NCBI RefSeq assembly: GCF_000428945.1
Contig: NZ_KE386821.1
Span: 183,330-247,329, forward strand
Direction: 5' to 3'
DNA length: 64,000 bases
From: Hamadaea tsunoensis DSM 44101
GTDB lineage: Bacteria; Actinomycetota; Actinomycetes; Mycobacteriales; Micromonosporaceae
Of the stretch, positions 1 through 54,211 are shown one piece after another (the stretch's first letter is position 1; each line of letters starts with the position of its first letter). Under the pieces are notes generated by a model. It saw only the letters and a list, made by a program, of their open reading frames with translations. It searched no databases and was not told where the DNA came from. The position numbers and the translations under genes are program-made.

Positions 1-163
1 CGATGGTGGCGCGGACCTCGGCTTGCGGCGTGACCTGGTCCGGGCGCTGCTTCGCCAGGTAGACGATCGCCGCGACGGTGGCGATGCTGACCGCCATGTA
101 CGCGGCGACCAGCGTCCGCGCCGTACGCAGTGTCGTCGGCCGGGGGTTGTCAGGAAGAGGCAT
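1..163 (-). CDS. Partial gene: membrane-anchored hypothetical protein (N-terminus only)
   Basis: A minus-strand frame starts at ATG 163 and runs off the left edge of the window; 54 codons are visible. The peptide begins MPLPDNPRPTTLRTART, followed by a hydrophobic stretch at about residues 18-40 that ends in YLAKQRPDQ. This looks like a single membrane anchor or uncleaved signal with the rest outside. The gene is divergent from the SARP regulator at 247, leaving about 80 bp for both promoters. I do not recognise the family and the function cannot be judged from this fragment. Confidence 0.55.
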   Translation of the reverse strand, partial: MPLPDNPRPTTLRTARTLVAAYMAVSIATVAAIVYLAKQRPDQVTPQAEVRATI

Positions 164-246
164 GCGAAATGTCCTTCGTGGTGGGAAAGCCCAGTGTGCG
201 TCGGCGGTCCTCACATTCACCTCACACGGTGGTAACGTCGTCCCTT

Positions 247-18095: not shown

Positions 18096-18225
18096 CGGCG
18101 ACGCCCCCCACAAGCGATACACAACGCGGCCACAACAGGTGCCGTCCACAGTAGCCACATGATCGCGGAGGGGCCCGGTTCAGCCGGACATCCGACGATC
18201 CGTCCATCGTTGTGGAGGAGTTCCC

Positions 18226-32055: not shown

Positions 32056-32181
32056 CTGAGCTTCCGGCCTGTCGGCCGCGCCCGGGCTGAAGTACATTGA
32101 TCGCGCGCTTTGTCCGGGTCGGGCCGGTGAAGCATGAAGCAGCCGTTCGCGCCCAGGGGCAGACGGCCACTGGGAGGCGCG

Positions 32182-35610: not shown

Positions 35611-35695
35611 GCCGGACAAAGCCATGTCAACATATCGTCAGGCGGGGATCAATGGATAGCGTGGACCGCCGGCCTGTGGATAAAGGAGCTCTCCT

Positions 35696-37018
35696 GTGAA
35701 TCGTGTCGTGCATCGGTGGACTTCACTGCCGGGTACGCGTTTCGCCCGAGACGCCGAAGGGCACGTGTGGGCGGTCGGAGCGCGCCGGCAGCGACTCGGT
35801 CCGGCGGAGCCCGCCTTGCTCGCGGCGTTGCGGTCGCTGTCCACCGAGGACGGCGACGGCCTGCTCGGACTGCCCGCCCCGCTGGACGTCCTGCACGGCG
35901 GTGGCTGGCTGGGTGTCGAGGTCTCCTGCGACGGCAAGCCGCTGCTCGCCGAGTTCCCGCTGGGCGGCGTACCGCTGCCGGCGCACGTGGATCCGCCGCG
36001 CCCGCCCGGTCCGGCCCGGCTGTCGCGCTTCGCGGTGCTGCGCAGGGACGGCGACGTCTTCGTCATGGAGTCCCCGCGCGCGCGTTCCACGGTACGCATC
36101 GCGTCGGCGGCGGTCCTCGACGTCGTGATCGATCCGGACTCGACCGCCCTGCCGGAGCCGGTACGCGCGGCCGTCCTCGATCGCCTGGCCGCCGCCGGGT
36201 TCCTCGGCGGTCCGGACGAGGAGGCGGACTTCCGGCTGCGCCAGTGGGGCCCGCACGAACTGTGGTTCCACGCCCGCAGCCGGTGGGGCGGCGGCGCGTC
36301 GGCCGACCCGGTCGGGCCGAGCACCTGGGCCCGCGACGTGTTCGCCCCGCTGCCTTCGCAGCACGCCGCGGTCCCGGGGGAGAGCCGGATCGCGCTGGCC
36401 GCCCCGGACCGGCCGGCCACGGCTCTCGGCGCGCTCCTCGACGAGCGCGTGTCCGTCCGTGCCCACGACGACGCCCGTCCGCTCACCCTGGCGGTGTTCG
36501 GCGAGTTCCTGCACCGCTGCGCCCGCGTACGACGGACGATGATCTACGACGACGTCGAGTACACGGCCCGGCCCTATCCGAGTGGCGGGACGGCGTACGA
36601 GCTGGAGATCTATCCCGTGGTACGGCTCGTCGAGGGCCTCGCGCCCGGGCTCTACCGGTACGAGCCGCACGACCATGAGCTGGTGGTGCTGCCCGGCGTC
36701 GACCCCGGGATCTGCGACGAACTGCTCCGGCAGGCGGCCGTGACGGCGATGGCCGCCGAGCCTCCCCAGGTACTCCTCCTGGTGGCGGCCCGGTTCGGCC
36801 GGATGCTGTGGCGCTACGAAGGGATGGGCTACGCGACGACCCTCAAGAACGTCGGCGCGCTCTACCAGACCATGTACCTCGTGGCCACCGAGATGGGTCT
36901 CGGGCCGTGCGCTCTGGGCAACTCCGACCCGCGTTTGCTGGCCCAGGCGGCCGGGCTCGATCCGCTGGTCGAAGGGACGGTCGGCGAGTTCCTGATCGGC
37001 AGCCGGGTCAGGCCGTGA
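35696..37018 (+). CDS. SagB-family flavin dehydrogenase (azoline oxidase type), RiPP cluster
   Basis: 440 aa from GTG 35696 with AAAGGAG upstream. The first about 230 residues form a SagB-type N-terminal region. The C-terminal nitroreductase domain carries RPYPSGGTAYELEIYPVV (FMN-binding loop), LYRYEPHDHELVVL, RYEGMGYATTLKNVGALYQ in pieces and MGLGPCALGNSDP. Such enzymes use FMN to oxidise thiazolines and oxazolines to aromatic azoles. It is transcribed away from the regulator and is convergent with the exporter permease, overlapping it by 11 nt. It is one of five nitroreductase-like modules in the cluster. Confidence 0.9.
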   Translation: MNRVVHRWTSLPGTRFARDAEGHVWAVGARRQRLGPAEPALLAALRSLSTEDGDGLLGLPAPLDVLHGGGWLGVEVSCDGKPLLAEFPLGGVPLPAHVDPPRPPGPARLSRFAVLRRDGDVFVMESPRARSTVRIASAAVLDVVIDPDSTALPEPVRAAVLDRLAAAGFLGGPDEEADFRLRQWGPHELWFHARSRWGGGASADPVGPSTWARDVFAPLPSQHAAVPGESRIALAAPDRPATALGALLDERVSVRAHDDARPLTLAVFGEFLHRCARVRRTMIYDDVEYTARPYPSGGTAYELEIYPVVRLVEGLAPGLYRYEPHDHELVVLPGVDPGICDELLRQAAVTAMAAEPPQVLLLVAARFGRMLWRYEGMGYATTLKNVGALYQTMYLVATEMGLGPCALGNSDPRLLAQAAGLDPLVEGTVGEFLIGSRVRP

Positions 37019-37745
37019 GCCGCCGGCCGGCCCGCCGGTAGAGGATCAGCGCCGCGACCGCGAACAGCAGCCCCCAGTACGCGAGGATGCCGATCCCCTG
37101 GATGTCGGGCGCCTCGCCGGCGAGCGTCCGCCAGCCCAGTTCCGCGTAACGGTAGGTCGGCAGGACCTGGGCGACCGCCCGCATCACCGAGGGCATGAGG
37201 CTGGCGGGGAACCACAACCCGCCGAGCAGTGACAGTGTCATGTAGACGGCGGTGATGACCGGCTGGGCGGCGTCGCCGCCCACGAGGTAGCCGAGCGCGA
37301 CGCCGAGGGCCGCGAAGGGCAGGATGCCGATCACCAGCAGGAGGACCAGTTCCACCCAGCGCAGCGCCGGGAGCGTGACACCGTTGGTGAGCGCGCCCGC
37401 GAGGAAGACCAGCCCGATCGTCGGCAGGGTCGTCAGCATCGCCACGACGACCTTGACGGTGAGGTAGTCCCGTCCACTGAGGGCGGTCAGCCGGAGCTGG
37501 CGCGCCCACCCGATCCGGCGTTCCACGGCGATCCGCGTGCCGATGAACAGCGCCGCGCTGACGGCGCCGAAGGCGGCCATGGACACCATCGAGTACGCGT
37601 TGCCGGTCGTCCCGGCGATCCGCCCGTTCGTGACGCCGACGTGGCTGAACACGAGGTAGATCACCACCGGGAAGCCGACGGTGAACAGCAGGTACATCCG
37701 GTTGCGCCAGACCCGGCGCAGCTCGATGGACAGATAGGTGCTCAT
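37008..37745 (-). CDS. ABC-2 type exporter permease, RiPP cluster
   Basis: 245 aa from ATG 37745 (MSTYLSIELRRVWRNRMYL). Six helices in the ABC-2 pattern: VGFPVVIYLVFSHVGV, then SMVSMAAFGAVSAALFIG, ALSGRDYLTVKVVV, LLLVIGILPFAALGVALG, and a final AYWGLLFAVAALILY. It pairs with the ATPase encoded by the next gene, which it overlaps by 4 nt. Placed inside the RiPP cluster it probably exports the mature peptide or gives self-protection. Confidence 0.9.
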   Translation of the reverse strand: MSTYLSIELRRVWRNRMYLLFTVGFPVVIYLVFSHVGVTNGRIAGTTGNAYSMVSMAAFGAVSAALFIGTRIAVERRIGWARQLRLTALSGRDYLTVKVVVAMLTTLPTIGLVFLAGALTNGVTLPALRWVELVLLLVIGILPFAALGVALGYLVGGDAAQPVITAVYMTLSLLGGLWFPASLMPSVMRAVAQVLPTYRYAELGWRTLAGEAPDIQGIGILAYWGLLFAVAALILYRRAGRRLTA

Positions 37746-38653
37746 CGCACGCCCTCCGTGATCGCAATGAACGCGTCCTCCAGGGTCGCGCCCACCACCT
37801 CGATGCGGGTCGCCCCGGGATTGCGGTCGAGCAGGGTCCGCAGGGCGCGGTCCGAGTCCGTGCAGCGCAGGACGACATGGTCGCCGGAGATGCGGACCTC
37901 GGCCACGCCGGGCAGCGACTCCAGTTCGCCGCGGTCGGCGGGCGACAGCCGGCAGCGGATCTCGCGGGTTCCCACGACCTCGGTCAGGGCGTCCGCCGGG
38001 GCGTCCGCGATCACCTTGCCGCCCGCGATGACCACCACGCGATCGGCGTAGTTCTCGGCCTCGTCGAGGTAGTGCGTGGCGAACAGGAGGGTCCGGCCCA
38101 GGCCGGAGGCAGTCTCGCGGCGTTGCCAGAACTCGCGGCGGGCACTGACGTCCATCGCGACCGTCGGCTCGTCGAGGATCAGCAGCTGCGGATCGGAGCA
38201 CAGGGCCATCGCCAGTTTGACGCGCTGGGCCTGGCCGCCCGAGAGGACGTCGGTCCGGCGGCCCAGGAACTCGGTGACGCCGGCCTCGTGGGCGATCTGC
38301 TCCAGCGGGGCGTGCCGCGGGTAGCAGGCGCACACCAGGCGGATCAGCTCGCCGACGGTCACGTCGGGCAGCAGGCTGCCGGTCTGGAGCATGGCGCCGA
38401 CCGCACCGGAGCGCAACGCGTCCTGCGGTTCCTGGCCGAGCAGGCGGGCGGTGCCGGCGTCGGCCTGCTGCAGGCCGAGAAGGATCTCCAGCAACGTCGT
38501 CTTGCCGGCGCCGTTCGCGCCGAGGAGGGCGACGATCTCGCCGGGTCGCACGGTCAGGTCCACTCCGGACAGTGCGACGACCTCGCCGAAGGCTTTGCGT
38601 ACGCCGGCCGCGCTGAGCGCATCCGCGGACCCCTCCGAGCGTTCATCCCGCAT
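37742..38653 (-). CDS. ABC exporter ATP-binding protein, RiPP cluster
   Basis: 303 aa from ATG 38653; ATG 38671 is also in frame. Walker A GANGAGKTT near residue 49, Q-loop near 90, signature LSGGQAQR near 135, Walker B LLILDEPTVAMD near 157 and switch His in FATHYLDEAE. The roughly 90-residue C-terminal extension (REIRCRLSPADRG, VVLRCTDSDRALRTLL) is typical of drug-resistance type ATPases such as DrrA. It forms a two-component exporter with the permease. It is divergent from the precursor peptide gene. Confidence 0.92.
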   Translation of the reverse strand: MRDERSEGSADALSAAGVRKAFGEVVALSGVDLTVRPGEIVALLGANGAGKTTLLEILLGLQQADAGTARLLGQEPQDALRSGAVGAMLQTGSLLPDVTVGELIRLVCACYPRHAPLEQIAHEAGVTEFLGRRTDVLSGGQAQRVKLAMALCSDPQLLILDEPTVAMDVSARREFWQRRETASGLGRTLLFATHYLDEAENYADRVVVIAGGKVIADAPADALTEVVGTREIRCRLSPADRGELESLPGVAEVRISGDHVVLRCTDSDRALRTLLDRNPGATRIEVVGATLEDAFIAITEGVR

Positions 38654-38671
38654 CGCCCCGTGTCTCCTCAT

Positions 38672-39058
38672 CGATAGCGGTACACCCCGTTGCCGCGGCG
38701 AAGACTATCACGCGATCCCTTTCGGACAAGGCTTCGCGGCCGGCGGCTCGCGGCGGTCGTGTCATAGCCGACAGGCGCCGGTCCGACGCCTGTCGTAGAT
38801 CAATTAACCGCATCGCGAATTCCGTGAATCGCTTGCCGGATCGCGAATGCGAAATGGTTATCAGGTATGGGTGAACTGCGTCAGGGATGCCACGAATCCG
38901 CTGCTCGGGAGACTGCGCGAATCCCCAGATCGATACCAGCGGCCAATGTGGATCTTCCTTGATCGTTCATAAGTTGTTCTCGTCCGGCCAGTCCGGCCAG
39001 ACCGTGTCGATCCCATATCCGGCCGGCAGTCCGGCCGGGCCGACCAAAGGAGGGGCAC
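38672..39058. promoter_or_regulatory. Control region between exporter genes and precursor peptide gene
   Basis: About 390 bp without a gene, less GC-rich than its flanks (for example CAATTAACCGCATCGCG and GTTCATAAGTTGTTC). It holds a 9-bp-arm hairpin (CGACAGGCG at 38769-38777 with CGCCTGTCG at 38787-38795), repeats of ATCGCGAAT at about 38815-38855, and a GC-rich hairpin next to the precursor ribosome site. It should contain the divergent promoters of the RiPP operon and the exporter. Confidence 0.55.
39019..39038 (+). promoter_or_regulatory. Leader hairpin just upstream of the precursor ribosome site
   Basis: CCGGCCGG (39019-39026) and CCGGCCGG (39031-39038) pair perfectly around the loop CAGT. 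It ends 7 nt before the AAAGGAGGGG ribosome site of the precursor gene. It may stabilise the 5' end of the mRNA or affect start-site access. Confidence 0.5.
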
Positions 39059-39229
39059 ATGCCCACGCAGGACCTTGAATTGATGGACCTCGACCTCGAC
39101 CTGGAGATCGTCGAGATCTCGTCCGTGCGCGACGCGGTCGCGCTGCCGGAGTCGGGCGCCTCGTCCGGCACCAGCAGCTGCGGCTCGTCCTCGTGCTGCG
39201 GCAGCTGCTCCTGCTGCTGCTGCCTGTAA
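39059..39229 (+). CDS. RiPP precursor peptide, thiopeptide/azole type (56 aa)
   Basis: ATG 39059 follows the excellent site AAAGGAGGGG. The 56-aa product has an acidic leader (MPTQDLELMDLDLDLEIVEI, then SSVRDAVALPESGAS). Such LDLEIxEI leaders are typical of thiopeptide precursors. The core, about residues 36-56, consists almost only of Ser, Cys and Gly: Cys at 41, 46, 47, 50 and 52-55, Ser at 36, 39, 40, 43-45, 49 and 51, Thr38, Gly at 37, 42 and 48, and a terminal Leu56. Cys would give thiazoles, and Ser/Thr dehydro-residues or a central pyridine. The exact cleavage site is not known. It is the first gene of the operon and is followed by an attenuator-like hairpin. Confidence 0.9.
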   Translation: MPTQDLELMDLDLDLEIVEISSVRDAVALPESGASSGTSSCGSSSCCGSCSCCCCL

Positions 39230-39243
39230 CACCCACCGGGGCA

Positions 39244-39284
39244 GCCTGCCCGCCGCGCCAGGCCTAGTGGCGCGGCAGGCAGGC
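39244..39284 (+). terminator. Attenuator hairpin between precursor and biosynthetic genes
   Basis: Arms 39244-39259 (GCCTGCCCGCCGCGCC) and 39269-39284 (GGCGCGGCAGGCAGGC) pair at 15 of 16 positions around a 9-nt loop, followed by CGCTCTTTCC. Partial termination here would make more precursor mRNA than enzyme mRNA, a common arrangement in RiPP operons. Confidence 0.78.
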
Positions 39285-39326
39285 CGCTCTTTCCATAGTG
39301 GCAGGTCCGGACGGAAGGGATGCGCG

Positions 39327-41867
39327 GTGGTGGACGTCGAATTCGCGCCGTACGCGCTGGTGCGGTTCAACCCGATCGCCGGCCCCGCGCCGGTCGGCCG
39401 CCACCACGCCGTGTTCGACGAGATCGACCGCCTCGCCGTGGAGCGGCGGCGGCTGACTCCGGCCGTCCTGGAGCGCTTGTACGCGCTGGCCGCCGAAGTC
39501 CCCGACGACGTCCGCCTCCAGGTGGTGCTGCCGTCGTCGCGAGCCGTGTTCAACGACCGCGACCCGCGCGTGCCGCCCGAGCGGCTCGCCGCCGAGGTGC
39601 CCGACCTCGTGCGGTGGCACGAGCTGCGGCGCGCCGAGCGGGAGCGGCTGGACGAGGCGGAGGCCCTCGTCGCGGCGGTGCTCACCGAGGAGCGCGATCT
39701 CCTGCGGGCGGTGCTCGGCCACGAAGACTTCCTGCGCGCCGCCGCGATCTCCAGCCCGGATCTGGCCCGCAGCGCCGCCCGTTACGCCGCCACACCGCCG
39801 GCGCAGCAGCCCAAGCGGGTCCGCAAGTCCGAGCCGAAGCTGATCCGGTACGCCTTGCGCGCGATCGCCAAGACGAGCCCGTTCAGCCACTACACGGTCA
39901 TCGGCATGGGCCGCTGGCGACCGGGCGCGCCACCGGATCCGGCCGACCGTGCGGTGCGGGTCGAACCGAGCCTGCTCCTGCTGCTGCGGTTGCTGGACGC
40001 CGCGACCGCCGATCCGGCCGCGCTGCCCGTCTCCGTGCGGCTGGCGGAGGGGGTCGTGCGGACCGACGCGGGATTCGAGTTCGAGGTCATGCGCGACGAC
40101 CCGCAGCGCTCCCGCGTCTACCGCACCCGCCGGTCGAGGGTGTGCGTCCCGGCATCGGGTGCCACGCGCTACCTCGTCGACGGCGTCGGCAGCGGGGCCC
40201 GTCCCGTGCAGGAGCTGGCCGCGGCCCTCGCCCAGCGTTCCGGGCAGCCGGTCGCCACCGCGTACGCGTACATCGGGCGGTTGCTGTCGGCCGGGCTGCT
40301 GACCGTGGATCTGCGCGTCGACCAGCACGCGTCTGATCCGGCCCTGCGACTGGCCGAGGACCTCCGGGCACTGGGCGCGCCGGCCGCCGTGGAGCTGGCC
40401 GAGTGCGTGGCCGGGCTGCATCGGCGTACCGTGGCCGTGGCGGGCATGGAATCCGGTGACCGACCGGCGGCGATCGACGCCCTGCGCGCCGCATGGGACG
40501 CCGCCTTCGCCCGCTACGGCACGAGCTCCCTCACCGACAGCCCGTTGTACGAGGACGTGGCCCTGGCCGGGAGCGTCGACGTCGACCCCCGACGCTGGGC
40601 GGCCGTCCGCGACGATCTGCGGTCGCTGATCCCCGCGCTGGAACCGCTCAACATGGACCACCCCGGTCAGGCGCTGATGACGCTGAAGGTGGTCGACAAG
40701 CTCGGGCCGGGCGGCTCCTGCGCCTACCCGGAGTTCGTCGCCATGCTGCCCGACGTCTTCACCACCGAGCAGGTCACGCTGGCCGCGATGCTCGCCGAGA
40801 TCGGCGGCCGCGATCCCGGGCTCGACGAGCTGCTGGCCGTGCGCGAGCGGTACCTGCACCAGGTCGCCACCGCCGACGGGCCGGAGGTCGTCCTCAGCCC
40901 CGAGTTCGTCGCCGGCATGGCCGCCGGCGTCCCGCGGCGATTCCGGCGCGAGCACGCTTCGTTCAGCGTCTTCGTGCAGGCCGTGTCGGAGAAGGACGCC
41001 GTCGTGGACCGTGCGGCCGTCAACGCCGTCCTCGACGGCAACGGCGGGTTCCTGTCGAGGTTCCTCGAACTCGACGACGACGGCATCACCGCCACCCTGC
41101 GCGAGCATCTGCGGCGTACGCTGCCGGCCGGGGCGACCGAGCTGCGTCCAGTGCAAGGCTTCAACGCCAACGTGCACCCGGCCCTGCTGGACCGGCAGTT
41201 CCGCACGTTCGACGGGGCCGACGGCATCGATCCGGGCACGTTGCGCGTACGCCACGATCCGGTCGAGGGCCGGCTGGTACTGGAGGACGCCGACGGCCGG
41301 CGGGTCCTGCCGAAGTACCTCGGCTTCCTCGTGCCCTACCTGTTGCCGTGGGAGCTGACCGGCCTGTATCTGCTCAGTGCGCCGAGCCAGCTGCGGATCG
41401 ACGCCGCGGGCGAACTCGAGCGGCGGCTCGGCGAGGCGGATCGCACCGGCATCCGGGCCTACCCCCGGGTCCGGTACGGCTCGCTCATCCTCAGCCGCCG
41501 CCGGTGGATCGTGCCGGCGCCGCTGCTGCCGGTGCAAGGCCCCGCCGAGTCCGACGCCTGGTTCCTGGCCCGCTTCGACGCCTTCCGGGCCGCGCACGGC
41601 ATACCCGCCCGCGTCTTCGTCGCCCGGCTGGGCACGGCGCCGGACGGCGGTGAGGCCGACGCCCTCGGCCGCCCCAAGCCGATGTACGCCGACCTGCGCT
41701 CCCCGCTGCATCTGCGCTGCCTGCCGGCATGGGTGGCCGACGCGCCGACACTGCGGATCGAGGAAGCGACGCCCGATCCGGCCGCACCGCCGGCCGATCC
41801 GCTGACCGGCCGGCGCGCGACGGAGTACCTGATCGAGTGCAGCCAGACCGAAGGCGGTGACCGGTGA
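39327..41867 (+). CDS. LanB-type dehydratase, glutamylation domain (thiopeptide dehydratase N-part)
   Basis: 846 aa from GTG 39327; GTG 39330 is equally possible. It matches the Lant_dehydr_N region: LVRFNPIAGPAP at the start, RYALRAIAKTSPFSHYTVIG near residue 180, SSLTDSPLYEDVALAG near 405, LNMDHPGQALM near 440, FNANVHPALLD near 615, and SPLHLRCLPAW near the end. It lacks the SpaB_C elimination domain, which is separate in this cluster, as in thiopeptide systems. In that class the enzyme glutamylates core Ser and Thr with Glu-tRNA. It overlaps the next gene by 4 nt. Confidence 0.9.
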   Translation: MVDVEFAPYALVRFNPIAGPAPVGRHHAVFDEIDRLAVERRRLTPAVLERLYALAAEVPDDVRLQVVLPSSRAVFNDRDPRVPPERLAAEVPDLVRWHELRRAERERLDEAEALVAAVLTEERDLLRAVLGHEDFLRAAAISSPDLARSAARYAATPPAQQPKRVRKSEPKLIRYALRAIAKTSPFSHYTVIGMGRWRPGAPPDPADRAVRVEPSLLLLLRLLDAATADPAALPVSVRLAEGVVRTDAGFEFEVMRDDPQRSRVYRTRRSRVCVPASGATRYLVDGVGSGARPVQELAAALAQRSGQPVATAYAYIGRLLSAGLLTVDLRVDQHASDPALRLAEDLRALGAPAAVELAECVAGLHRRTVAVAGMESGDRPAAIDALRAAWDAAFARYGTSSLTDSPLYEDVALAGSVDVDPRRWAAVRDDLRSLIPALEPLNMDHPGQALMTLKVVDKLGPGGSCAYPEFVAMLPDVFTTEQVTLAAMLAEIGGRDPGLDELLAVRERYLHQVATADGPEVVLSPEFVAGMAAGVPRRFRREHASFSVFVQAVSEKDAVVDRAAVNAVLDGNGGFLSRFLELDDDGITATLREHLRRTLPAGATELRPVQGFNANVHPALLDRQFRTFDGADGIDPGTLRVRHDPVEGRLVLEDADGRRVLPKYLGFLVPYLLPWELTGLYLLSAPSQLRIDAAGELERRLGEADRTGIRAYPRVRYGSLILSRRRWIVPAPLLPVQGPAESDAWFLARFDAFRAAHGIPARVFVARLGTAPDGGEADALGRPKPMYADLRSPLHLRCLPAWVADAPTLRIEEATPDPAAPPADPLTGRRATEYLIECSQTEGGDR

Positions 41868-42985
41868 TCCGAGCCCTGGTGGCCAGCCACCACGACGCCG
41901 ACAAGCGGGCGCTCCTGCGGGACTGCCTCGTCCCGCTGGCCCGCGGCGTACCCGGTGCCTTCCTCGAACGGCACTGGCTGCGCGGTCCGCACGTCCGTCT
42001 CGCCGTCCCGGCCGGTACGCCGGAGGCGCCGCTGCTGGCAGACGTGGCCGGATACCTGCGGCGGAACCCGTCGCGCCAGCCGGTCGACCCCGTGGCGTAC
42101 GCGCGGCTGAGCCGGGAACTGGGCCGCTCCGAACTCGTCGCGGGACCCTACGAGCCGGTGCGGGCCGACAACACGGCGGTCATGGAGGACTACCCCGAAC
42201 AGGATTCCGTGGCGCTGCTGGGCGAGGCCGGATTCGCGCTCAAGCGCCGGATCCTGGCCCGCGCGGTCGAACCGCTCGCGCACGGCCTCGAAGCACTCGA
42301 CCGGGGACGGCACCGGGTCGTCGTGGCCATGGGCGCGCTGATCGCCAACGCCACCCGGTGGCCGATCGGCGGCCTGGCGACCGGCCAGCTGAGCTACCGG
42401 TCCCATCTGGAGGACTTCCTCGCGAACAACGACGCCGACGGCCAGGTACGCACTCTGCTCGCGGCCCGCTTCGCGGCGAACGAGGACTCGTTGCGGGCAG
42501 CCTTCCGGGCGCAGGTGTCGGCCACCGACCACGGCCGGTACACCGGTGACGATCCCTATCCGCGGGCCTGGTCCGAAGCGTTCGACGACGTGTGGCCGGC
42601 GCTGCTGGAGGCCTCGCAGGCGGGCGAGGTCACCGAGGACGTCGGTCCCGGATACCTCAGCGCGGCCCGGGAATTCGACGAGCGGACCGAGCGGCAGTGG
42701 CGCTTCGGACCCGACCGGCCGAGCAGCGACTTCCACCACGAACTGGGCAAGCTGCGCGACCTTCCCGAACGGGTGCACGTCAGCGAGTTCGCCGCGTACC
42801 GGTTCGTCACCAATCAGGTCACGCGGTGGCTGCCGCTGCTGGGGATCTCACCCGTCGAGCGGTACTTCGCGTCCTTCGCGGTGTGCGAGCTGACCGAGCA
42901 GGAGTTCGGCGTGAGCTGGCGTGATCAGCTGGCCGCGATCCGGCGGGATCCCCACGCCCGCATCAGCGAAGGCAACCCGACATGA
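41864..42985 (+). CDS. SpaB_C-like protein: glutamate elimination or pyridine synthase
   Basis: 373 aa from GTG 41864. The block AFLERHWLRGPHVRLAVP near residue 35 is the diagnostic (R/E)HWxxGPHxRL of the SpaB_C/thiopeptide family. The rest is helical, with VVVAMGALIANATRWPIGGL in the middle and AAYRFVTNQVTRWLPLLGIS near residue 310. In thiopeptide pathways two such stand-alone proteins exist: one eliminates glutamate to form dehydroalanine, the other performs the [4+2] cycloaddition. This more divergent copy could be the cyclase, while the domain at 46253 looks more canonical. The assignment is uncertain. It overlaps both neighbours by 4 nt. Confidence 0.78.
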   Translation: MIRALVASHHDADKRALLRDCLVPLARGVPGAFLERHWLRGPHVRLAVPAGTPEAPLLADVAGYLRRNPSRQPVDPVAYARLSRELGRSELVAGPYEPVRADNTAVMEDYPEQDSVALLGEAGFALKRRILARAVEPLAHGLEALDRGRHRVVVAMGALIANATRWPIGGLATGQLSYRSHLEDFLANNDADGQVRTLLAARFAANEDSLRAAFRAQVSATDHGRYTGDDPYPRAWSEAFDDVWPALLEASQAGEVTEDVGPGYLSAAREFDERTERQWRFGPDRPSSDFHHELGKLRDLPERVHVSEFAAYRFVTNQVTRWLPLLGISPVERYFASFAVCELTEQEFGVSWRDQLAAIRRDPHARISEGNPT

Positions 42986-46256: not shown

Positions 46257-47860
46257 GCTGGACGTCGTTGCACGCCTTCGCCCACGGCGGCCGGGAGCAC
46301 ACCGACACGTTCCTGGCCGAGTGCGTCGCACCGGAGGCCGACCGGCTGACGGCGGCCGGGGAGTGTCGCGGGTGGTTCTTCATCCGCTACTGGCAGGGCG
46401 GCCCGCACGTCCGCGTCCGGCTCCGCGACGCCACACCGTCCGCTGTGGACGAACTCGCCCTGCGGATGGAGTCGTGGCTTCTGGACCATCCCGAGCCCGC
46501 GCTCGAACCGGCGGCCTACTACGGCACGCGTACGCCGGATGCGGCCTGGCACAAGCACGGCGAGGTCACCCGGGAAGCCTACGAGCCGGAGCTGGACCGG
46601 TACGGCGGTCCGAGCGCGATGGCGGCGGCCGAGGACCTGTTCGTCGTGTCCACCAGGGTGGCTCTGACGGCGTTGCGGCAGCCGCGGCTGGGGGTGGCCT
46701 ACAACCTGCTGGCCGCGTTCGGCGCGGCGGTCTGCGACGGGCCGGCCGCCGAGGCGACCATGTTCCGCCGGTACGTCCTCAGCGCCCGGTTCAACACCGA
46801 GGACCCGTCGGACGTCGACGTGCGGACGATCCGCGGGCGGGCCGAGTCGGACTTCCAGGCCCGTCGCGAGTCGTACCTGTCGTCGCGGGCCAAGGTGCGC
46901 TCCGCCGTGGGACAGGACGCCGCCCGGACCGGGTACCTCGGACTGTGGCACGCGTCCGCCACCGCGTACGCCGAACGCCTGCGGCACCTGGAGGCGGCGG
47001 GGGAGCTGGGCGGGGTCGGATCGGTGTGGACGATCCTGCTGAGCCAGCTGCACATGCTGCACAACCGGATGGGCGTGGAACTCGCCGAGGAGTACCACCT
47101 GTCGTGGCTGGCGTCGCTGGCGGCCGTCCAGGCGAGCATGGGGGAGGGCTTCCACGACGGGGGGCTCGACACGCCCGCCCGCCGGTACCACGAGGCGGCC
47201 AAGTACTTTCCCGCCACGCTGCCCGCGCAGCTGCCGCGATCGGACGTGCCGCCGGCCTACGTTCCCCGGACTCCGGTGTTCGATCTCCCGGCGGCCGGCC
47301 CGCTCGACCGGCCGGTGGGGGAGACGCTCCTGGCGCGACGGTCCACACTGGCCGGTTACCACGGTCCGGTGTCCCTCGACGACCTCGCGACGCTCCTGGC
47401 GTACTCGGGGGGCGACCGGTATCCGAGCGCCGGCATCGTCCGTCCGACCCGGCTGCTCGTCGTGCCGACCCAGGTGCCGGGGCTGGAGCCGGCGGTCTAT
47501 CACCACGATCCCGACGGGCACCGCCTGCGGCGGGTCGCGCCGTTCGTCGGGCTGGCCGGCACGTCGCCCTATCTGGACCCGGGCGAGGTGGTGGCGCTCG
47601 ATCCCGCGCGCGTACCCCTGTGGCTGGTCGTCGTGGGCGACATCCCGGCCATCACGGCGCGCTACGGCCTGCGCGGCTACCGCTTCCTCCTGCTGGAGGC
47701 CGGTCACTTGGCGCAGAACGTGCTGCTCGTCGCGACGGCGCTGGGGCTGCGCTCGGTGCCGATGGGCGCCTTCCACGACGACGCCCTGGCGCAGGCACTC
47801 GACCTCGACGGGATCGGCGACGTCCCGCTGTACCTCATCCCGATCGGCGGCCGGTCGTGA
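46253..47860 (+). CDS. Fusion: SpaB_C/thiopeptide domain plus SagB-like dehydrogenase
   Basis: 535 aa from ATG 46253. Residues 1-300 form a canonical thiopeptide-type SpaB_C domain: GWFFIRYWQGGPHVRVRL near 40, YEPELDRYGGPSAMAAAEDL near 110, and QLHMLHNRMGV near 265. Residues about 340-535 are a nitroreductase/SagB domain: TLLARRSTLAGYHGPVS, YSGGDRYPSAGIVRPTRL, AVYHHDPDGHRLRRV, FLLLEAGHLAQNVLLVATAL and LRSVPMGAFHDD. The first half may eliminate glutamate or build the central ring, the second may oxidise azolines or the ring. I do not recall this fusion from characterised thiopeptide clusters. Confidence 0.88.
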   Translation: MSWTSLHAFAHGGREHTDTFLAECVAPEADRLTAAGECRGWFFIRYWQGGPHVRVRLRDATPSAVDELALRMESWLLDHPEPALEPAAYYGTRTPDAAWHKHGEVTREAYEPELDRYGGPSAMAAAEDLFVVSTRVALTALRQPRLGVAYNLLAAFGAAVCDGPAAEATMFRRYVLSARFNTEDPSDVDVRTIRGRAESDFQARRESYLSSRAKVRSAVGQDAARTGYLGLWHASATAYAERLRHLEAAGELGGVGSVWTILLSQLHMLHNRMGVELAEEYHLSWLASLAAVQASMGEGFHDGGLDTPARRYHEAAKYFPATLPAQLPRSDVPPAYVPRTPVFDLPAAGPLDRPVGETLLARRSTLAGYHGPVSLDDLATLLAYSGGDRYPSAGIVRPTRLLVVPTQVPGLEPAVYHHDPDGHRLRRVAPFVGLAGTSPYLDPGEVVALDPARVPLWLVVVGDIPAITARYGLRGYRFLLLEAGHLAQNVLLVATALGLRSVPMGAFHDDALAQALDLDGIGDVPLYLIPIGGRS

Positions 47861-49002
47861 TCGTCTATCGGGGCGCCGAGGTGTTCGACGGGCACGACGT
47901 GTCCGTCACCGACGTGGGCGTCGCCGACGGCGGCATCGTCGCGATGGGCGCCGGTCTCGACGGCGAGCGCCTGGTCGACCTCACCGGGTTCGGTCTCCTG
48001 CCCGGATTCGTGGACTGCCATGTCCACGTGACCGTCAGCTCGATGGATCCCGGAGTGCTGCTGCGGACACCGGCCAGCTACCGGATCCTCAGCGCGGCCC
48101 GCAACCTCCGGCGTACGCTGGCCGCCGGGGTCACGACCGCGCGGGACGCCGACGGCGCGGACGCGGGGCTGCGCCAGGCGATCGACGACGGGCTGATCCC
48201 CGGTCCCCGTCTGCGGATTGCGATCACGATGCTGAGCCAGACCGGCGGCCGGGGCGACTATCGCACGGCGTCGGGCGTACCGCTGCCCGCGTTCCCGGAC
48301 GACCGTCCCCCCGGCGTGGTCGACGGGGTGGAGCAGATGCGGCGCGCTGTACGCGGTCTCGTCGCCGCCGGTGCCGACGTCATCAAGATCGCCGTCAGCG
48401 GCAGCGCGCTGGGCACCGACGCCGATCGGGCTCAGCTGCGCGACGATGAGATCGCCGAAGCCGTCGCCGAGGCGAGCGCGGCCGGACTGCCCGTCATGGC
48501 CCACGCGCACAGCGCGGAAGGTGCGTTGCGGGCGATCCGCCACGGCGTGCACTCGATCGAACACGGCAGCGGGCTGAGCGACGAAGCGATCGCCGAGATG
48601 GCCGACCGGGGTACCTGGCTCGTGCCCACCCTCGCCGCGGGCCGCGCGACCGGCGACACGGAGTACGCCGACCGGCACGTCGAGGCGTTCCGGCGGGCCC
48701 GGGCGGCGGGCGTGCGGATCGCGATGGGCTCGGACTCCGGGCTGGTCGCGCACGGGCAGAACCTGACCGAGCTCACCGCCCTCGTCGAGGCGGGCATGTC
48801 GCCCTGCGAAGCTCTGACCACCGCCACGTACGCCGGTGCGCGCCTGCTGCACCTCGACGAACGGATCGGGACGCTGGCGCCGAAGCGGCAAGCGGATCTG
48901 GTCGTCGTCGCCGGCGGCGTCTTTCCCGTCGAGACCATCGCGCGGCGCATCGTGGCGGTCCTGCGCGACGGCCGGGTGGTGGCAGGGCGGTTGCCGTCAT
49001 GA
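47857..49002 (+). CDS. Metal-dependent amidohydrolase in the RiPP operon
   Basis: 381 aa from GTG 47857. The full amidohydrolase set is present: GFVDCHVHV (His55 and His57), VIKIAVSG (the carboxylated Lys, about 177), MAHAHS (His about 216), SIEHGSG (His about 236) and GSDSG (Asp about 292). The composite beta domain begins YRGAEVFDGHDV and ends RQADLVVVAGGVFP. It resembles Xaa-Pro dipeptidase/imidazolonepropionase-like members. Within the cluster it could trim the leader or a C-terminal extension, or open an amide, as amidohydrolases do in bottromycin biosynthesis. Its substrate is inferred only from position. Confidence 0.85.
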   Translation: MIVYRGAEVFDGHDVSVTDVGVADGGIVAMGAGLDGERLVDLTGFGLLPGFVDCHVHVTVSSMDPGVLLRTPASYRILSAARNLRRTLAAGVTTARDADGADAGLRQAIDDGLIPGPRLRIAITMLSQTGGRGDYRTASGVPLPAFPDDRPPGVVDGVEQMRRAVRGLVAAGADVIKIAVSGSALGTDADRAQLRDDEIAEAVAEASAAGLPVMAHAHSAEGALRAIRHGVHSIEHGSGLSDEAIAEMADRGTWLVPTLAAGRATGDTEYADRHVEAFRRARAAGVRIAMGSDSGLVAHGQNLTELTALVEAGMSPCEALTTATYAGARLLHLDERIGTLAPKRQADLVVVAGGVFPVETIARRIVAVLRDGRVVAGRLPS

Positions 49003-49382
49003 TCCCCGTCCTCGCCGTCGGCGCCGTCGGGCACGCCATCGCGGCCAAGCTCACCGCCGAGTCCTACGACGTCGCGGTGATCCTGACCGACGCCGTGACC
49101 GCCGACGTCGAGCAGCTCGCGTGGCGCTGCCTCAGCGCGGGAACCCCGGTCCTCATCACTGTGCTGACGGGCGCCCGCCTCACCGTGGGGCCGCTGCATT
49201 TGCCGGACGGTCCGGGCGTGCCGTCGACGGGGTCGGGCGCGGGCGCGCCGGCCGGCGTACTGACGCAGCACATCGAGCTGGCCGCGGAGGTCACCCGCTG
49301 GTATCTGCGGCACGCCCACACCGAAGCGCTGAGCGTGGACCTGGTCGGCGTCGGTCTCCGGCGTTCGAGCGGGGAGCCGTGA
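48999..49382 (+). CDS. Small Rossmann/E1-like fragment protein, RiPP cluster
   Basis: 127 aa from ATG 48999. LAVGAVGHAIAAKLTAE resembles a nucleotide-binding start, and VAVILTDAVTADVEQLAWRC with TPVLITVLTGARLTVGPLHL resembles the last strands of the E1-like TOMM partner. The usual CxxC after GPLxxP is replaced by a Gly/Ser-rich stretch. It looks like a detached piece of an Ocin-ThiF protein kept as its own gene. Overlaps on both sides (4 nt and 1 nt) argue that it is translated. Confidence 0.65.
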   Translation: MIPVLAVGAVGHAIAAKLTAESYDVAVILTDAVTADVEQLAWRCLSAGTPVLITVLTGARLTVGPLHLPDGPGVPSTGSGAGAPAGVLTQHIELAAEVTRWYLRHAHTEALSVDLVGVGLRRSSGEP

Positions 49383-50809
49383 TGCCCCGGCTGACCGGTG
49401 CCACCACCGCCGACTCGCTGGCGGAGGCCGCCCGCACGGATCCGCATCTCGGCGTACCGGCGCGTCCGGCGCTGCGGCCCGGGATGCACTGGGAGTTCGG
49501 CGAACGTGCGGTCACCGTCGACACCGGTACGCGCCAGCTGCAACTGAGCGGACCGCGGATCTCGGCGGCGCTCGCCGCGCTCACGGCCCGCCTCGACGGG
49601 ACGAGCGACCACGATCTTCTGGCGACCCTGTGCGGGCTCGCTCCGTCGGCCGTCGAGAAGCTGCTGGGAGTGCTCGCCGTGCACGGGCTCCTCCAGGAGG
49701 GGCCGTCCGTCCCCGATCCGCGTACGGACGGGGGGTCGTGGCTGTATCTCAGCCGGGGGGTCGCGGCGACCGGCGTACACGCCGATGCGTCGGGTGCGCT
49801 GGACGTGCTGGAAAGTACGCCGGTCTGGGGTGTCGACAGTGATCTGCTGACGGCGGCCCGCACCGTGGCCGACGCGGCCTGGGTGATCGTCGGCGGCACA
49901 CCCGACCGCGCCGTGTGGCGGGACCATCTGCGGGCGGGCCGGACCGTCGTTCCCGTCGTGCGGGCGGCGGACGCTGTCACGATCGGACCGGTGCTGGAGC
50001 CCGGCAACCGGCGGCCCTGCCTGTCGTGTGTCGCCGAGGCGCTGCCGGCCGACGACGACGGCGGCACGGCATCGGCCCTGGCGGACGTCCTGGTGGCGAT
50101 GGAGGTCGCGCAGACCGTCGGCCGCTTCGGGCGTACGCTCACGAACGTCACGGCCGTCCGGCACGACCTGCGCGCGTGGCGCACGGACCTTGTCCCGGTG
50201 GCCTGCCGCGGCCATGGTTCCACTGTGGACCAGGTCATCCGCGACTACGAGGCGGCGGCCGGGCTGCCCGCCCGCCGGTGGCTCGACCCGGCCCTGCACC
50301 GTGGCCACTACCGGCCCGGCGCGCTGGCCGCGCAGACCGCCTTCCCGCGCGCGCCCGGGCCCGGCCGGCCCGCGCTCGATCCGATCGGCGCGGCGCTGCG
50401 CCGGGCGGTCGGCCTGCGTGCCACGGCACCGCCCGACCGTTACGCGCCGTCCGCAGGCAACCTGGGCATCATCATCGGGTACGCCGCCGACGCGAACGGG
50501 ATCCACCAGTACGACCCGTACGCGCACGAGTGGGTGACGCTGGAGAAGACCGGCCCGCCGATCGATGACACGGTGGTCGACGGGACGGCGATCGTGCTGG
50601 CCGCCGACATCGGGCGGTCGCTGCCGAAGTACGGGCTGAAGGCCTACCGGCTGGCGTGGCTGGAGGCGGGCGCGGCCATGGGCCAGCTCGCGATCGCCGC
50701 GACGGCACAAGGCCTGCGGATGGCGGCCCTGACCGAGTGGCCCGACGCCGGCTGGGAAGAGCGGCTGGGACCGGGGTTCCTCGTGTGCGCGATGGCGGTC
50801 GTGTCATGA
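49382..50809 (+). CDS. Fusion: E1-like/leader-binding domain plus SagB dehydrogenase
   Basis: 475 aa from ATG 49382. The N-terminal half (about residues 1-230) has LRPGMHWEFGERAVTVDTG (recognition-element-like), VLAVHGLLQEGP, and TIGPVLEPGNRRPCLSC, the typical E1-like end with one CxxC. The C-terminal half (about 330-475) is a nitroreductase: RYAPSAGNLGIIIGYA, QYDPYAHEWVTL, and KAYRLAWLEAGAAMGQLAIA. Substrate recognition and oxidation seem joined in one chain. It is the second unusual SagB fusion in the operon. Confidence 0.85.
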   Translation: MPRLTGATTADSLAEAARTDPHLGVPARPALRPGMHWEFGERAVTVDTGTRQLQLSGPRISAALAALTARLDGTSDHDLLATLCGLAPSAVEKLLGVLAVHGLLQEGPSVPDPRTDGGSWLYLSRGVAATGVHADASGALDVLESTPVWGVDSDLLTAARTVADAAWVIVGGTPDRAVWRDHLRAGRTVVPVVRAADAVTIGPVLEPGNRRPCLSCVAEALPADDDGGTASALADVLVAMEVAQTVGRFGRTLTNVTAVRHDLRAWRTDLVPVACRGHGSTVDQVIRDYEAAAGLPARRWLDPALHRGHYRPGALAAQTAFPRAPGPGRPALDPIGAALRRAVGLRATAPPDRYAPSAGNLGIIIGYAADANGIHQYDPYAHEWVTLEKTGPPIDDTVVDGTAIVLAADIGRSLPKYGLKAYRLAWLEAGAAMGQLAIAATAQGLRMAALTEWPDAGWEERLGPGFLVCAMAVVS

Positions 50810-51342
50810 CGACGCAGGCCGCACTTCCCCTTGACGTCCTGGCATACGTGCGGTCGGCCCGGTCGTCGTGGCCCGCGCCGGTCTCCTTGCCGTGGGTGGT
50901 GGATCCCGAGGTACTGGAATCGCGGCGCTCACGGCGGTCGTGGTCCGGCCCGCTCGCCCCGGTGTCGGTCGCCGCCGCGCTCGAAGCCGCCCGGCTGCTC
51001 GACGCGGCGTTGTGGCCCGGCGAGGAACCGCTCGGCGCCACCGTCGTCACCCCCGACGAGGGCATGCTCATGCAGGTCGACCTGGCCGCGGCACCCGCGC
51101 TCGTGCTGTGGCACGGGGACGTCGAGGCGGCCATCGCCGCTCACGGCGGCGCCGGATACCGGCTCCTGCTGACCCGGGGCGGCGCCGCGGCCGCCACGTT
51201 CCTTCTGCACATCCAGCAGCACGGTGGAGTCGGCTGTCTCACCGACGGTCTCCTGCCACCGCTGCGCGACGACGTCCCGCCCGCCGGCCGCCTCGCCCTC
51301 ATCGGCGCCGCGTTCGGCGTACCCGCCGAGGAGGAAGATTGA
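50806..51342 (+). CDS. Short nitroreductase/SagB-like protein
   Basis: 178 aa from ATG 50806. SRRSRRSWSGPLAPVSVAAA matches the R-x-S entry of SagB domains and GGAGYRLLLTRGGAAAATFL matches the helix that normally contains the FMN-proximal residues, followed by GVGCLTDGLLPP. It is shorter than a full SagB domain, with no obvious N-terminal part. It could form a heterodimer with one of the other nitroreductases, whose dimer interface is shared in this fold. Confidence 0.7.
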   Translation: MTTQAALPLDVLAYVRSARSSWPAPVSLPWVVDPEVLESRRSRRSWSGPLAPVSVAAALEAARLLDAALWPGEEPLGATVVTPDEGMLMQVDLAAAPALVLWHGDVEAAIAAHGGAGYRLLLTRGGAAAATFLLHIQQHGGVGCLTDGLLPPLRDDVPPAGRLALIGAAFGVPAEEED

Positions 51343-52760
51343 GCCGCCGCGTACGCCTGCGCCCCGGAGTGCACGCCGCGCCTGTTCCGGGCGGGCTGAG
51401 CATCGCCGGGCTGGGCCGCACGACCGTGGTCGCCGCCGACCCCGCCGAGTGGGACGCGCTGTTCCCGCGCCTGCACGCCGGATCGCCGGTCGGCCCGTCG
51501 ACCCTTGTGGACCGGCTGGAAGAACTGGGCCTGCTGCTCGATCCCGGCGACCGCCCGGCCGAGGCCGACCGCTTCCCCCGCGTACTCAGCTACCTGGAGG
51601 CGCACGCCGTCTCGCCCTACGACTCCTTCCGGCGGCTGCGCTCGGCGGTCGCGTACTTCCCGGGCGGCGACGGGCTCGTGCTGGACGCGGTACGCCGAAC
51701 CCTGGAACAGGCCGGCGTCGGCCGCCTGGTGGCCACGGATCCCCGGCCGGACGCGTCCATCGTGATCACCGTGGACACGTCGGAGCCACCGGACGCGCCG
51801 TGGATCGGCATCTGGCTCGCGGGCGAGCACGCCCTCGTCGGCGCGACGCTGCCGGATGCGCTGCGCCGCATCCGATTCGAGGTCGACCGGGCACCGGTGT
51901 CGCCCGTGGTCGCCACGCTCGCCGGCAATCTCGCCGGACTGGCCGCCCTGCGGGTGATCGCCGGACTGGACGACCCCGCGGCGCGTCGCGACGTCCAGCT
52001 CATCCGGACCGACGGGCTGAAGGTCACGGCGCATCCGACCGCCGCAGTCGCCGCCGAATGGGCCGAGCTGCCGGCGGACTTCGCGGTCGACGCCTTCGTC
52101 CCGCTGTATCCCGGGGCGGTTCCGCCGGTCCCGATCGCCTGCGACCCGGTGACCGGCGCGCTTCCCGCACCCATGCTGGTTCCCGCCGACGGCTCGACCG
52201 CGGCCGTGGCGAGCTGTGGCGTGGCGTACGGCGCCGGTCCCGATCCGGCCGCTGCGCTGCGGCGGGCGTTCGTCGCCGCCGCGCGTACGCTGGTTCCGTT
52301 GCCGGACAACGATTCCGTCGCCGCGGCCGGAACGTCGCCGGCGGAGTTCTGGCGCGACGCGGTCCTGCGGTGCATCGCGCGCTGGGAGGAGTCCGGCCGC
52401 CTGGACCGTCTCGCGGCGATCACCGGCCTGCACCCGCGTACGCCGGTGCCGGAGGCGGAGGTCGTCACCTATCGCGTCGCCGGCGGCCGCGACGTGTTCG
52501 CCACGACCGTCCGGATCGGCGGCCGGCTGGCGGCACTGGACTGCTCCCTGGACGCGCAGTCGAGTGTGGACGGTGCCACGGCCCATGCCCTCCTGGCCCC
52601 GGGCGTCGCCGTCGACTATGCCGTACCCCGCGATCCCGGCGAATTCGACGCCCGTGCGCTGCTCGGCGACGACGTGACCGGCCGATGGTGGCGGGGCGAA
52701 CCGCTCCTCGACGACGACGTCCTCACCGGCGTCGTCGCGTTCCGGAAGGACCTGCCGTGA
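51339..52760 (+). CDS. Second TOMM leader-binding/Ocin-ThiF-like protein (TTG start)
   Basis: 473 aa. The likely start is TTG 51339, which overlaps the previous stop by 4 nt; no ATG or GTG lies near. It begins SRRVRLRPGVHAAPVPGG, again like a recognition-element start, with PSTLVDRLEELGLLLDPG. A Rossmann-like stretch (IVITVDTSEPPDAPWIGIWL) and VVATLAGNLAGLAALRVIAG follow. The C-terminal part has VASCGVAYGAGPDPAAALRR, similar to the end of the protein at 42982. No catalytic residues were recognised. It is likely a second precursor-binding partner. Confidence 0.7.
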   Translation: MSRRVRLRPGVHAAPVPGGLSIAGLGRTTVVAADPAEWDALFPRLHAGSPVGPSTLVDRLEELGLLLDPGDRPAEADRFPRVLSYLEAHAVSPYDSFRRLRSAVAYFPGGDGLVLDAVRRTLEQAGVGRLVATDPRPDASIVITVDTSEPPDAPWIGIWLAGEHALVGATLPDALRRIRFEVDRAPVSPVVATLAGNLAGLAALRVIAGLDDPAARRDVQLIRTDGLKVTAHPTAAVAAEWAELPADFAVDAFVPLYPGAVPPVPIACDPVTGALPAPMLVPADGSTAAVASCGVAYGAGPDPAAALRRAFVAAARTLVPLPDNDSVAAAGTSPAEFWRDAVLRCIARWEESGRLDRLAAITGLHPRTPVPEAEVVTYRVAGGRDVFATTVRIGGRLAALDCSLDAQSSVDGATAHALLAPGVAVDYAVPRDPGEFDARALLGDDVTGRWWRGEPLLDDDVLTGVVAFRKDLP

Positions 52761-54211
52761 CCGCGTTCGACCTCGAAGCCTTCGCCCGCCTCCAGGCCCG
52801 GCCGAGCGAGATCTTCCGCCGGCCCGTGCGGCCGCTGCCGCCCCCGCCGCCGATCCGCTACTCGGCCGCGCCGTGCGTACCGCTGCCGATCGGCCGCCCG
52901 CGTACGCTGGCCGCGGTGCGCTACCCCCGCGCGCGCCCGGCCGCGCCGACCGGGCTGGACGGATTGGCGGACCTTCTCACGTCGGCCTTGGGGTTCCAGC
53001 GATACGAGCCGGCCAACAACTACAACGCACATCGGGCGTACCCCTCGGCGCAGAGCCTGTTCCCGGTCGAAGCCTTCGTGGTACGCGGACCGCGGGCCTG
53101 GCACTACGACGCGGCCCGCCACGCGCTACGGCCGGTGGGGGAGACGGCGGACGGCGACCCGGCCGGAGCCGGCGCGATGATCGCAGTCCTCGGCCGGCCG
53201 GGGCAGCTGCCGGACTACTACCGGGAGCTGCGCTGGGCGCTGACGCTGTGCGAAGCCGGTCACGCGGTCCAGGCCACCGCGGCCGTCGCCCAGGCTCTGG
53301 GGTACGCCGCCGGGGTGCACACCGACTTCGACGACGCCGCGCTGCTTAGCGCGATCGGGGCCGGACCCGCGGACGGATGGCTGCCGGCGGCCCTCATCGG
53401 CCCCCTGTCCACCCCGCCGGCCGACTCCTCGACACGCATCGGCTCGGCCCCGTCCGGCGGTGTCCCGCTGCCGGACGACACCGTGCTCGCCGAGGACCCC
53501 GTCCTGCACGCCGACCGCCTCGCCTGGCCCGCCTCTCACTCGCTCGGCAGCGACGATCCCGGATCCGATCCCCGTCCCAAGGCTGGATCCGACGCCGCGT
53601 CCGAGATGGGCGACGAGACGGGGGCGAGTTGGGACCACGTCCTGTTCACCCGATCGGCCGGGCACAGCCGCGGCGGCTTCACGGCCTCGCCCGCAACACT
53701 GCCCCGGCAGGCGCTGACCTCCGCGCTGGCCGCCTGCCGCCACGCGGCCCGTCAGGACTGGAGCGGCCTGGGCGTACGCCTGTGCCTGGCCGTCGAGCGC
53801 GTCGAGGCCCTCGCCGACGGCCTGTACGCCTGGTCCCCCGAGGCCGGTGACCTGACCCTGCTCGCGCCCGGCGCCCACCTCGGCGCGGTGCAGTCGGCGT
53901 ACCTCTATCCGTCGACGGTCATGCGGGTCGACACGTGCAACGTCGCGATCATGTTCCTCGCCGACTACCCGTCCCTCATCGGGTCGCACGGTGCGCGCGG
54001 GCTGCGGTTGAGCCAGCTCGCCGTCGGGGCGCTCGCGCAGGCGGCCGGCCTGGCCATGGCGGCGCACGGCGCGTTTCTGCGTCCGGCCCGCAGCTTCGAC
54101 CCCGATCGGCTGGGTGAGCTGGCCGACGCCAAGGACGGCGAGACGGTGGCCTATCTCGCGTTGTGCGGTCAGGCCAGGCTGGACGATCTCCTGCTCGACC
54201 TGCGGGTCTGA
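52757..54211 (+). CDS. Tandem nitroreductase/SagB-like dehydrogenase, last RiPP gene
   Basis: 484 aa from GTG 52757. The first half has RYEPANNYNAHRAYPSAQSL and FPVEAFVVRG followed by WHYDAARHALRPV, a SagB-type FMN loop. After a Pro/Ser-rich linker (about residues 215-290) the second half repeats the pattern with SAGHSRGGFTASPATLPRQA, LYAWSPEAGDLTLLAPGAH and HGARGLRLSQLAVGALAQAA. Double nitroreductase proteins occur in TOMM clusters, where one half may be structural. It closes the operon and is followed by a strong hairpin. Confidence 0.82.
   Translation: MTAFDLEAFARLQARPSEIFRRPVRPLPPPPPIRYSAAPCVPLPIGRPRTLAAVRYPRARPAAPTGLDGLADLLTSALGFQRYEPANNYNAHRAYPSAQSLFPVEAFVVRGPRAWHYDAARHALRPVGETADGDPAGAGAMIAVLGRPGQLPDYYRELRWALTLCEAGHAVQATAAVAQALGYAAGVHTDFDDAALLSAIGAGPADGWLPAALIGPLSTPPADSSTRIGSAPSGGVPLPDDTVLAEDPVLHADRLAWPASHSLGSDDPGSDPRPKAGSDAASEMGDETGASWDHVLFTRSAGHSRGGFTASPATLPRQALTSALAACRHAARQDWSGLGVRLCLAVERVEALADGLYAWSPEAGDLTLLAPGAHLGAVQSAYLYPSTVMRVDTCNVAIMFLADYPSLIGSHGARGLRLSQLAVGALAQAAGLAMAAHGAFLRPARSFDPDRLGELADAKDGETVAYLALCGQARLDDLLLDLRV

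Follow-up and report, generated by a model that had tools for sequence, protein, structure and literature searches.

A divergent, probably lactazole-type thiopeptide cluster enlarged by oxidation genes in Hamadaea tsunoensis

Does a thiopeptide locus with an unusual set of enzymes represent a separate kind of cluster, or an enlarged version of a known one? This question is raised by a 64,000-nucleotide stretch of Hamadaea tsunoensis DSM 44101 (contig NZ_KE386821.1, positions 183,330 to 247,329; this whole stretch is the window, and all coordinates refer to it), in which a gene for a thiopeptide precursor (g5, 39059-39229) is followed by eleven genes at 39327-54211 (g6 to g16). All ten junctions between these genes are 4-bp overlaps, and the frames are open. 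The region was re-annotated using codon composition and start sites, after which 20 proteins encoded at 32-56 kb of the window were scanned with Pfam and NCBIfam. As g6 to g10 show the lactazole gene order and a SpaB_C-SagB fusion, we read the locus with good confidence as a genuine, divergent thiopeptide cluster of the lactazole type, to which oxidation modules have been added and an amidohydrolase recruited. The original prediction for this DNA, made without database searches, had proposed that the cluster is of the thiopeptide class and that its enzyme set is unusual, and both points are backed by the family scans and profiles.

The lactazole-type module

The 56-aa Ser/Cys/Gly-rich precursor g5 (plus strand, like g6 to g16) is matched above cut-off by the thiopeptide precursor models Thiopep_pre (E 4e-13, 49.4 bits against a cut-off of 23.5) and thiazolyl_B (E 5.6e-12). 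Its leader ends in ALPESGA and is followed by the core SSGTSSCGSSSCCGSCSCCCCL, the start of which is placed by comparison with relatives; the eight Cys in this core fit the highly thiazole-rich product that had been predicted. The first enzyme, g6 (39327-41867), is a LanB glutamylation protein which is kept in relatives (Lant_dehydr_N, E 6.3e-28) and had been described as lacking the elimination domain, in agreement with the absence of a Lant_dehydr_C match up to E 0.1. Two SpaB_C-type proteins were also found as expected: the pyridine synthase g7 (41864-42985; Lant_dehydr_C E 1e-5, NF045556 E 2.5e-50, family profile against the PbtD/TbtD structures E 2.2e-31) and the N-terminal half of the LazF-like g10 (46253-47860), in which an elimination domain (Lant_dehydr_C, E 5.6e-41) is fused to a C-terminal SagB half. 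Between them lie the D-type (LazD-like) protein g8 (42982-44463), recognised by its position, by tblastn to D proteins and by a D-family profile built with g8, and the YcaO cyclodehydratase g9 (44460-46256; E 6.9e-75) with an E1-like N-terminal domain and, as noted before, a PxPxP tail, here PHPFP. Profile matches of the g8 family to ribosomal S11 or an amidotransferase (E 0.003-0.08) were taken as chance.

The precursor, the YcaO protein, the split LanB (g6 plus the SpaB_C half of g10) and a pyridine synthase of the TbtD/PbtD/LazC family (g7) mark a pyridine-type thiopeptide cluster, whereas a linear azole-containing peptide (LAP) would be expected from a YcaO system without such a synthase. 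The laz cluster (PMC7210931, excerpts) and lactazole-like loci share with the window the A-B-C-D-E-F order of precursor, LanB, pyridine synthase, D protein, YcaO protein and SpaB_C-SagB fusion. Their leaders resemble that of g5 and a G-S-x-S-C type core motif is common to both, although protein identity to the lactazole-like loci is 30-49%, the window core is longer and richer in Cys, and further genes are added (g2, g11, g12, g13-g14, g15 and g16). The compact set of five enzymes typical of lactazole-like loci is thus exceeded by six or seven genes, and we treat the locus as a variant.

For comparison with relatives, 20 fetched regions were combined with 79 genome-scan loci (from the best 80 of 87 relatives), which with seven shared gave 92 distinct loci. 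Gene presence was scored by tblastn (E <= 1e-4), and as many loci stop short of 10 kb of flanking sequence, absence refers to the sequence available. Matches to LanB, pyridine synthase, YcaO and SpaB_C occurred together in 79/92 loci. One of these relatives, the Streptomyces-type L069, is lactazole-like with the same B-C-D-E-F order and two precursors with cores SWGSCSCQGSSSC... and SYGSCSCQGSSSC...; with the fourteen other rows that share the core type of the window (see below), this corrects the original prediction in that the cluster does resemble known ones; its extra enzymes are indeed unusual. No characterised cluster with the same core and gene order was encountered in what was searched.

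Enzymes beyond the lactazole set

Downstream of the lactazole-type module, g11 (47857-49002) encodes a prolidase/carboxypeptidase-like amidohydrolase (Amidohydro_1, E 5.5e-44) with intact HxH, K, H, H and D motifs, which we take to be metal ligands. In the PDB it scores best against 9kov (trum-mut), the amide hydrolase LlADH, the Xaa-Pro dipeptidase 2qs8 and the arginine carboxypeptidase 3mtw (E 2.6e-48 for the latter two). The next gene, g12 (48999-49382), is probably a short E1-like protein, as suggested by a profile of the E1 family (E 5.8e-4 when filters are switched off) and 36% identity to a small protein at the same place in L102 (Kitasatospora aureofaciens CPD02), though the hhalign probability is only 6.6. 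It is followed by g13 (49379-50809), which combines RRE-like (RiPP recognition element, where RiPP is a ribosomally synthesised and post-translationally modified peptide), E1-like and SagB parts and scores E 3e-43 with a profile built from other clusters only. The g13 family profile matches MusD, TruD, LynD, MccB, the PbtF RRE, CyaGox and McbC of the PDB in the expected stretches, and also O-methyltransferase N domains at E 0.015-0.018; TAL-effector matches of g13 residues 271-344 were discarded as repeat artefacts in view of the E1, RRE and SagB matches of the family profile. A predicted structure of the g13-type protein of L102 was poor (mean predicted local distance difference test score 50.7), and no claim on its fold is made. 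The last three genes are a SagB-like partner (g14, 50806-51342; E 2.3e-19 with a profile made from the g14-like proteins that occur in LAP-type clusters), a second D-type protein with an RRE (g15, 51339-52760; hhalign probability 99.8 to the g8 family, PbtF RRE at E 5.8e-6 with the g15-family profile) and a double SagB protein (g16, 52757-54211; antibiot_sagB E 1.7e-14 in two stretches, 36-39% identity to proteins in L060, L061 and L105). The several SagB dehydrogenases and E1-like proteins previously noted are thus g2, g10, g13 and g16 by scan and g14 by profile only for the former, and domains in g9, g13 and weakly g12 for the latter, while three features had escaped notice: the amidohydrolase, the additional D-type protein, and a hairpin that separates the precursor and LanB genes. 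A Lys-Tyr pair is important in SagB enzymes; it is invariant across the 13 rows of the g13 alignment, is missing from g14 and g16, and is replaced by Arg-Tyr in g10 and in 47/72 relatives.

This added set is unusual. Genes g11, g12 and g14 were matched in 0/92 loci, g13 in 3/92 (L102, plus L060 and L061, where the match is confined to the SagB part), g15 in 4/92 and g16 in 27/92. Searching by profile gave strong g13-type proteins in L102, L070 and L071 and parts in L128; weak multi-stretch matches (L103, L152, L176, L069/L142, L063, L151, L172 and L147; E 1.9e-11 at best) were set aside. Only L102 contains a similar composite, with a divergent exporter, an SSG-type core, the B-C-D-E-F genes and then g12-like, g13-type, g15-like and g16-like genes. 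It differs in that g11 and g2 were not found in the 21 kb fetched, in its short g15-like protein (227 aa), and in having at the place of g14 a C-terminal extension of the g13-type protein which is weakly g14-like; 8/500 shuffles score as high, and we speak of an extension rather than a g13-g14 fusion. The g7 proteins of the window and L102 are 44-45% identical and form a pair in the tree (94/89) that carries a warning for long branches. A parallel to the g12-g14 row is found in L087-L096 (genus g311 and others), where a YcaO protein, a 210-aa E1-like protein, and g13- and g14-type proteins stand in a row; as g6 and g7 were unmatched by tblastn in the 20 kb fetched there, this row differs from the window, and its products are probably linear azole peptides. 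The L087-L096 row also has a membrane protein, and small Cys-rich frames near it in L089, L090 and L093 may be precursors. An origin of g13-g14 as a purely imported LAP module is weakened by the g13-type protein with a second SagB domain in the lactazole-like L070 and L071, and by the split parts in L128.

Core group, ring size and proposed pathway

Precursors were found by pattern search in 67/79 scan loci, and 15 rows with 13 distinct cores, the window core included, were grouped by eye by their [ST]SG start; these rows are related, several come from one genus, and they do not amount to 15 independent observations (the tree needs three changes on 90 rows). Ser17 is preceded by Cys, Ser or Thr and followed by Cys or Thr in 15/15 cores and is the only Ser with such flanks throughout. 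Both Ser6 and Ser11 are themselves kept in all 15 cores, with the flank pattern present in 10/15 for Ser6 (the next residue is Ser instead of Cys/Thr in five) and in 13/15 for Ser11 (preceded by His10 in L102 and L113). In lactazole, Ser1 is joined to Ser12 and Ala at position 1, 10, 11 or 12 abolishes lactazole, the suggested minimal motif being oxazole11-Dha12 (Dha, dehydroalanine), and LazC requires an azole before the 4pi Ser (PMC7210931, excerpts). Because the last fitting Ser is used in lactazole, we infer by analogy that Ser17 is the ring partner in the window; counted as 3n-4, closure there would give a 47-membered ring, against 32 for lactazole, with a Cys18-Cys21 tail and a terminal Leu. 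For a product with eight thiazoles and one pyridine the [M+H]+ was calculated as 1780.308, to be lowered by 18.011 for each additional dehydration and by 113.084 should Leu22 be removed. Ring sizes given in the same excerpts are 26-35 members for thiopeptides known in 2020 and 14-62 for the Laz enzymes in vitro. Judged by title, no 47-, 44-, 41- or 38-membered thiopeptide was recognised in the literature covered; most subscription journals fall outside it, so we do not present these clusters as new to the literature.

The pathway that we propose joins the gene identities (by homology), gene order, coupling and core-pattern conservation obtained here to reaction steps borrowed from lactazole, for which the roles of LazB to LazF were established by reconstitution (PMC7210931, excerpts). 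The YcaO protein g9 with the leader binder g8 would convert Cys and some Ser to azolines, to be oxidised by SagB domains, while the remaining Ser that become dehydroalanine would first be glutamylated by g6 and then lose glutamate through the action of the SpaB_C half of g10. Residue 1 and a second dehydroalanine, by core comparison residue 17, would be turned by g7 into the pyridine, closing the ring and releasing the leader as an amide. The g12-g13-g14 and g15-g16 proteins are most likely extra leader-guided complexes that dehydrogenate azolines, the most likely task of g11 is to trim either the product or the leader, and g3-g4 would export the product. A RiPP maturation role for an amidohydrolase has a precedent in the bottromycin enzyme PurAH, which is likewise encoded within a RiPP cluster, cleaves off the follower peptide and is described as thiazoline-specific by a title cited there (PMC10885120, excerpts). 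This is not evidence of kinship: judged by name, the 29 chains that g11 matches in the PDB include no PurAH or BotAH. More boldly, though at less than even odds, there may be a natural group of 47-membered thiopeptides in several actinobacterial families. The window would encode a member with a polythiazole core, whose maturation would be completed by several dehydrogenase systems together with an amidohydrolase that takes off the residue adjoining a thiazole or thiazoline.

Several observations pull in the other direction. The product, its ring size and the roles of g2 and g11 to g16 are all predicted from the genes. The NF045556 score of g7 (171.7 bits) is below the equivalog cut-off of 325, as it is for its lactazole-like relatives; support is weak for g12 and for what stands in place of g14 in L102; and the pairing with L102 depends on long branches. 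With regard to g11, its closest kin are found outside RiPP clusters, and in the ten best-context regions around kin of 42-50% identity the other cluster enzymes were unmatched, except for ABC (ATP-binding cassette) ATPases. A tail of four Cys is also present where g13 was undetected (e.g. L114), so that the extra enzymes are not accounted for by the tail. Thr is the first residue in two of the 15 cores (L103 and L108, SSG-type cores TSGSSSSDSSSTCGSSSCC), which is unexpected if residue 1 must become dehydroalanine. Finally, Ser6 and Ser11 also fit the flank rule in the window core, and lactazole has an early Ser6 between two thiazoles which is not used, so the flank rule alone does not pick the ring partner.

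Ring closure at Ser11 (29-membered) or Ser6 (14-membered) is accordingly a real possibility, though on balance we doubt it: both residues are fully conserved and suitably flanked in the window, and the Laz enzymes do make 14-membered rings, at low efficiency (PMC7210931, excerpts), yet the flanks fail in the two cores with His10 and the five with Ser after Ser6, and lactazole itself uses the last fitting Ser. We consider it unlikely that the locus is an ordinary lactazole-like cluster (g5 to g10) followed by genes from a different RiPP system that are redundant or in decay and leave the product unaffected. While g12 is shorter than its 210-aa relatives, g14 and g16 lack the Lys-Tyr pair kept by g13 and its kin, and the five lactazole enzymes are enough for lactazole A (PMC7210931, excerpts), the coupling of all ten junctions with open frames and the retention of a similar gene set in L102, which is from another family, argue against relics. 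Very improbable is the production of two compounds, with g5 giving rise to the thiopeptide and g12 to g16 producing a linear azole peptide, since the pattern search of 34001-56000 gave one precursor-like frame and no second, and the g12-g16 block has no YcaO protein of its own, even though the g12-g14 homologues of L087-L096 adjoin one where LanB and pyridine synthase are unmatched, and several lactazole-like loci have two precursors.

Neighbouring genes and related clusters

The gap between g5 and g6 contains a hairpin (39226-39305, plus strand; -46.8 kcal/mol, z -3.63, 0/200 shuffles as stable), and the corresponding gap of L102 has z -2.24 with 4/200 shuffles as stable; it may possibly set the ratio of precursor to enzymes. 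The promoter/terminator scan gave no matches, including none at the hairpin. Upstream, the exporter and the divergent regulator of the original prediction were both located on the minus strand: an ABC-2 permease (g3, 37008-37811; 35% identity to the L102 permease in the same place) with a DrrA-like ABC ATPase (g4, 37742-38671; 45% to its L102 counterpart), and an ArsR-type regulator with DUF5937 (g1, 34453-35625; Pfam/NCBIfam), assigned to the cluster by position only. The plus-strand g2 (35696-37018) is a SagB-type oxidase resembling the cyanobactin oxidase CyaGox (antibiot_sagB E 7.1e-46; PDB 5lq4 at about 3e-50), and as it is uncoupled from the main operon, its membership is also by position. 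As stated previously, no L11 methyltransferase was seen: there was no methyltransferase among the 20 proteins scanned, which is unsurprising because lactazole A is stated to be without antibacterial activity (PMC7210931, excerpts). A histidine kinase and a LuxR-type response regulator (32134-34115) stand directly before the cluster, and L102 likewise has kinase/regulator pairs near its exporter, with no blast match between those and the pair in the window. Two large BTAD/NB-ARC/TPR regulators are encoded elsewhere in the window (130-2961 and 15132-18158).

The same genome (G000; 9.48 Mb in 68 contigs) has a second lactazole-type cluster, L052 (G000:C18:43000-62999), with two precursor-like frames, one ending in ASCSCCYVT and one of the SSG type. 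Two different precursors are also present in L053-L055, L057-L059, L066 and L067, the second ending in SCSCCYVT (second core in L053-L059: SSAGDGGRASCSCCYVT), while the lactazole-like L062-L065 and L068 have a hydrophobic core, SASTS[AV]VW[QR]WLGYSSC, and D and YcaO regions that fall within a single called frame. Within the family of the window, pyridine-synthase model matches (E <= 0.001) occur in 95/354 genomes, a figure which includes elimination proteins. With a single pyridine synthase as query, genome contigs and viral contigs gave no relative; plasmids contained six distant pyridine synthases, and g13 was not found on them.

Lactazole-like clusters made up 251/508 of the predicted thiopeptide clusters, with laz the sole characterised one in 2020 and of unknown biological function (PMC7210931, excerpts). 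They are a large family that is barely characterised, and what is unusual in H. tsunoensis is the part beyond the lactazole set. The core group yields a sharp prediction, a 47-membered ring, which is the boldest testable claim made here, and the operon provides a case where several leader-binding dehydrogenases may share one core.

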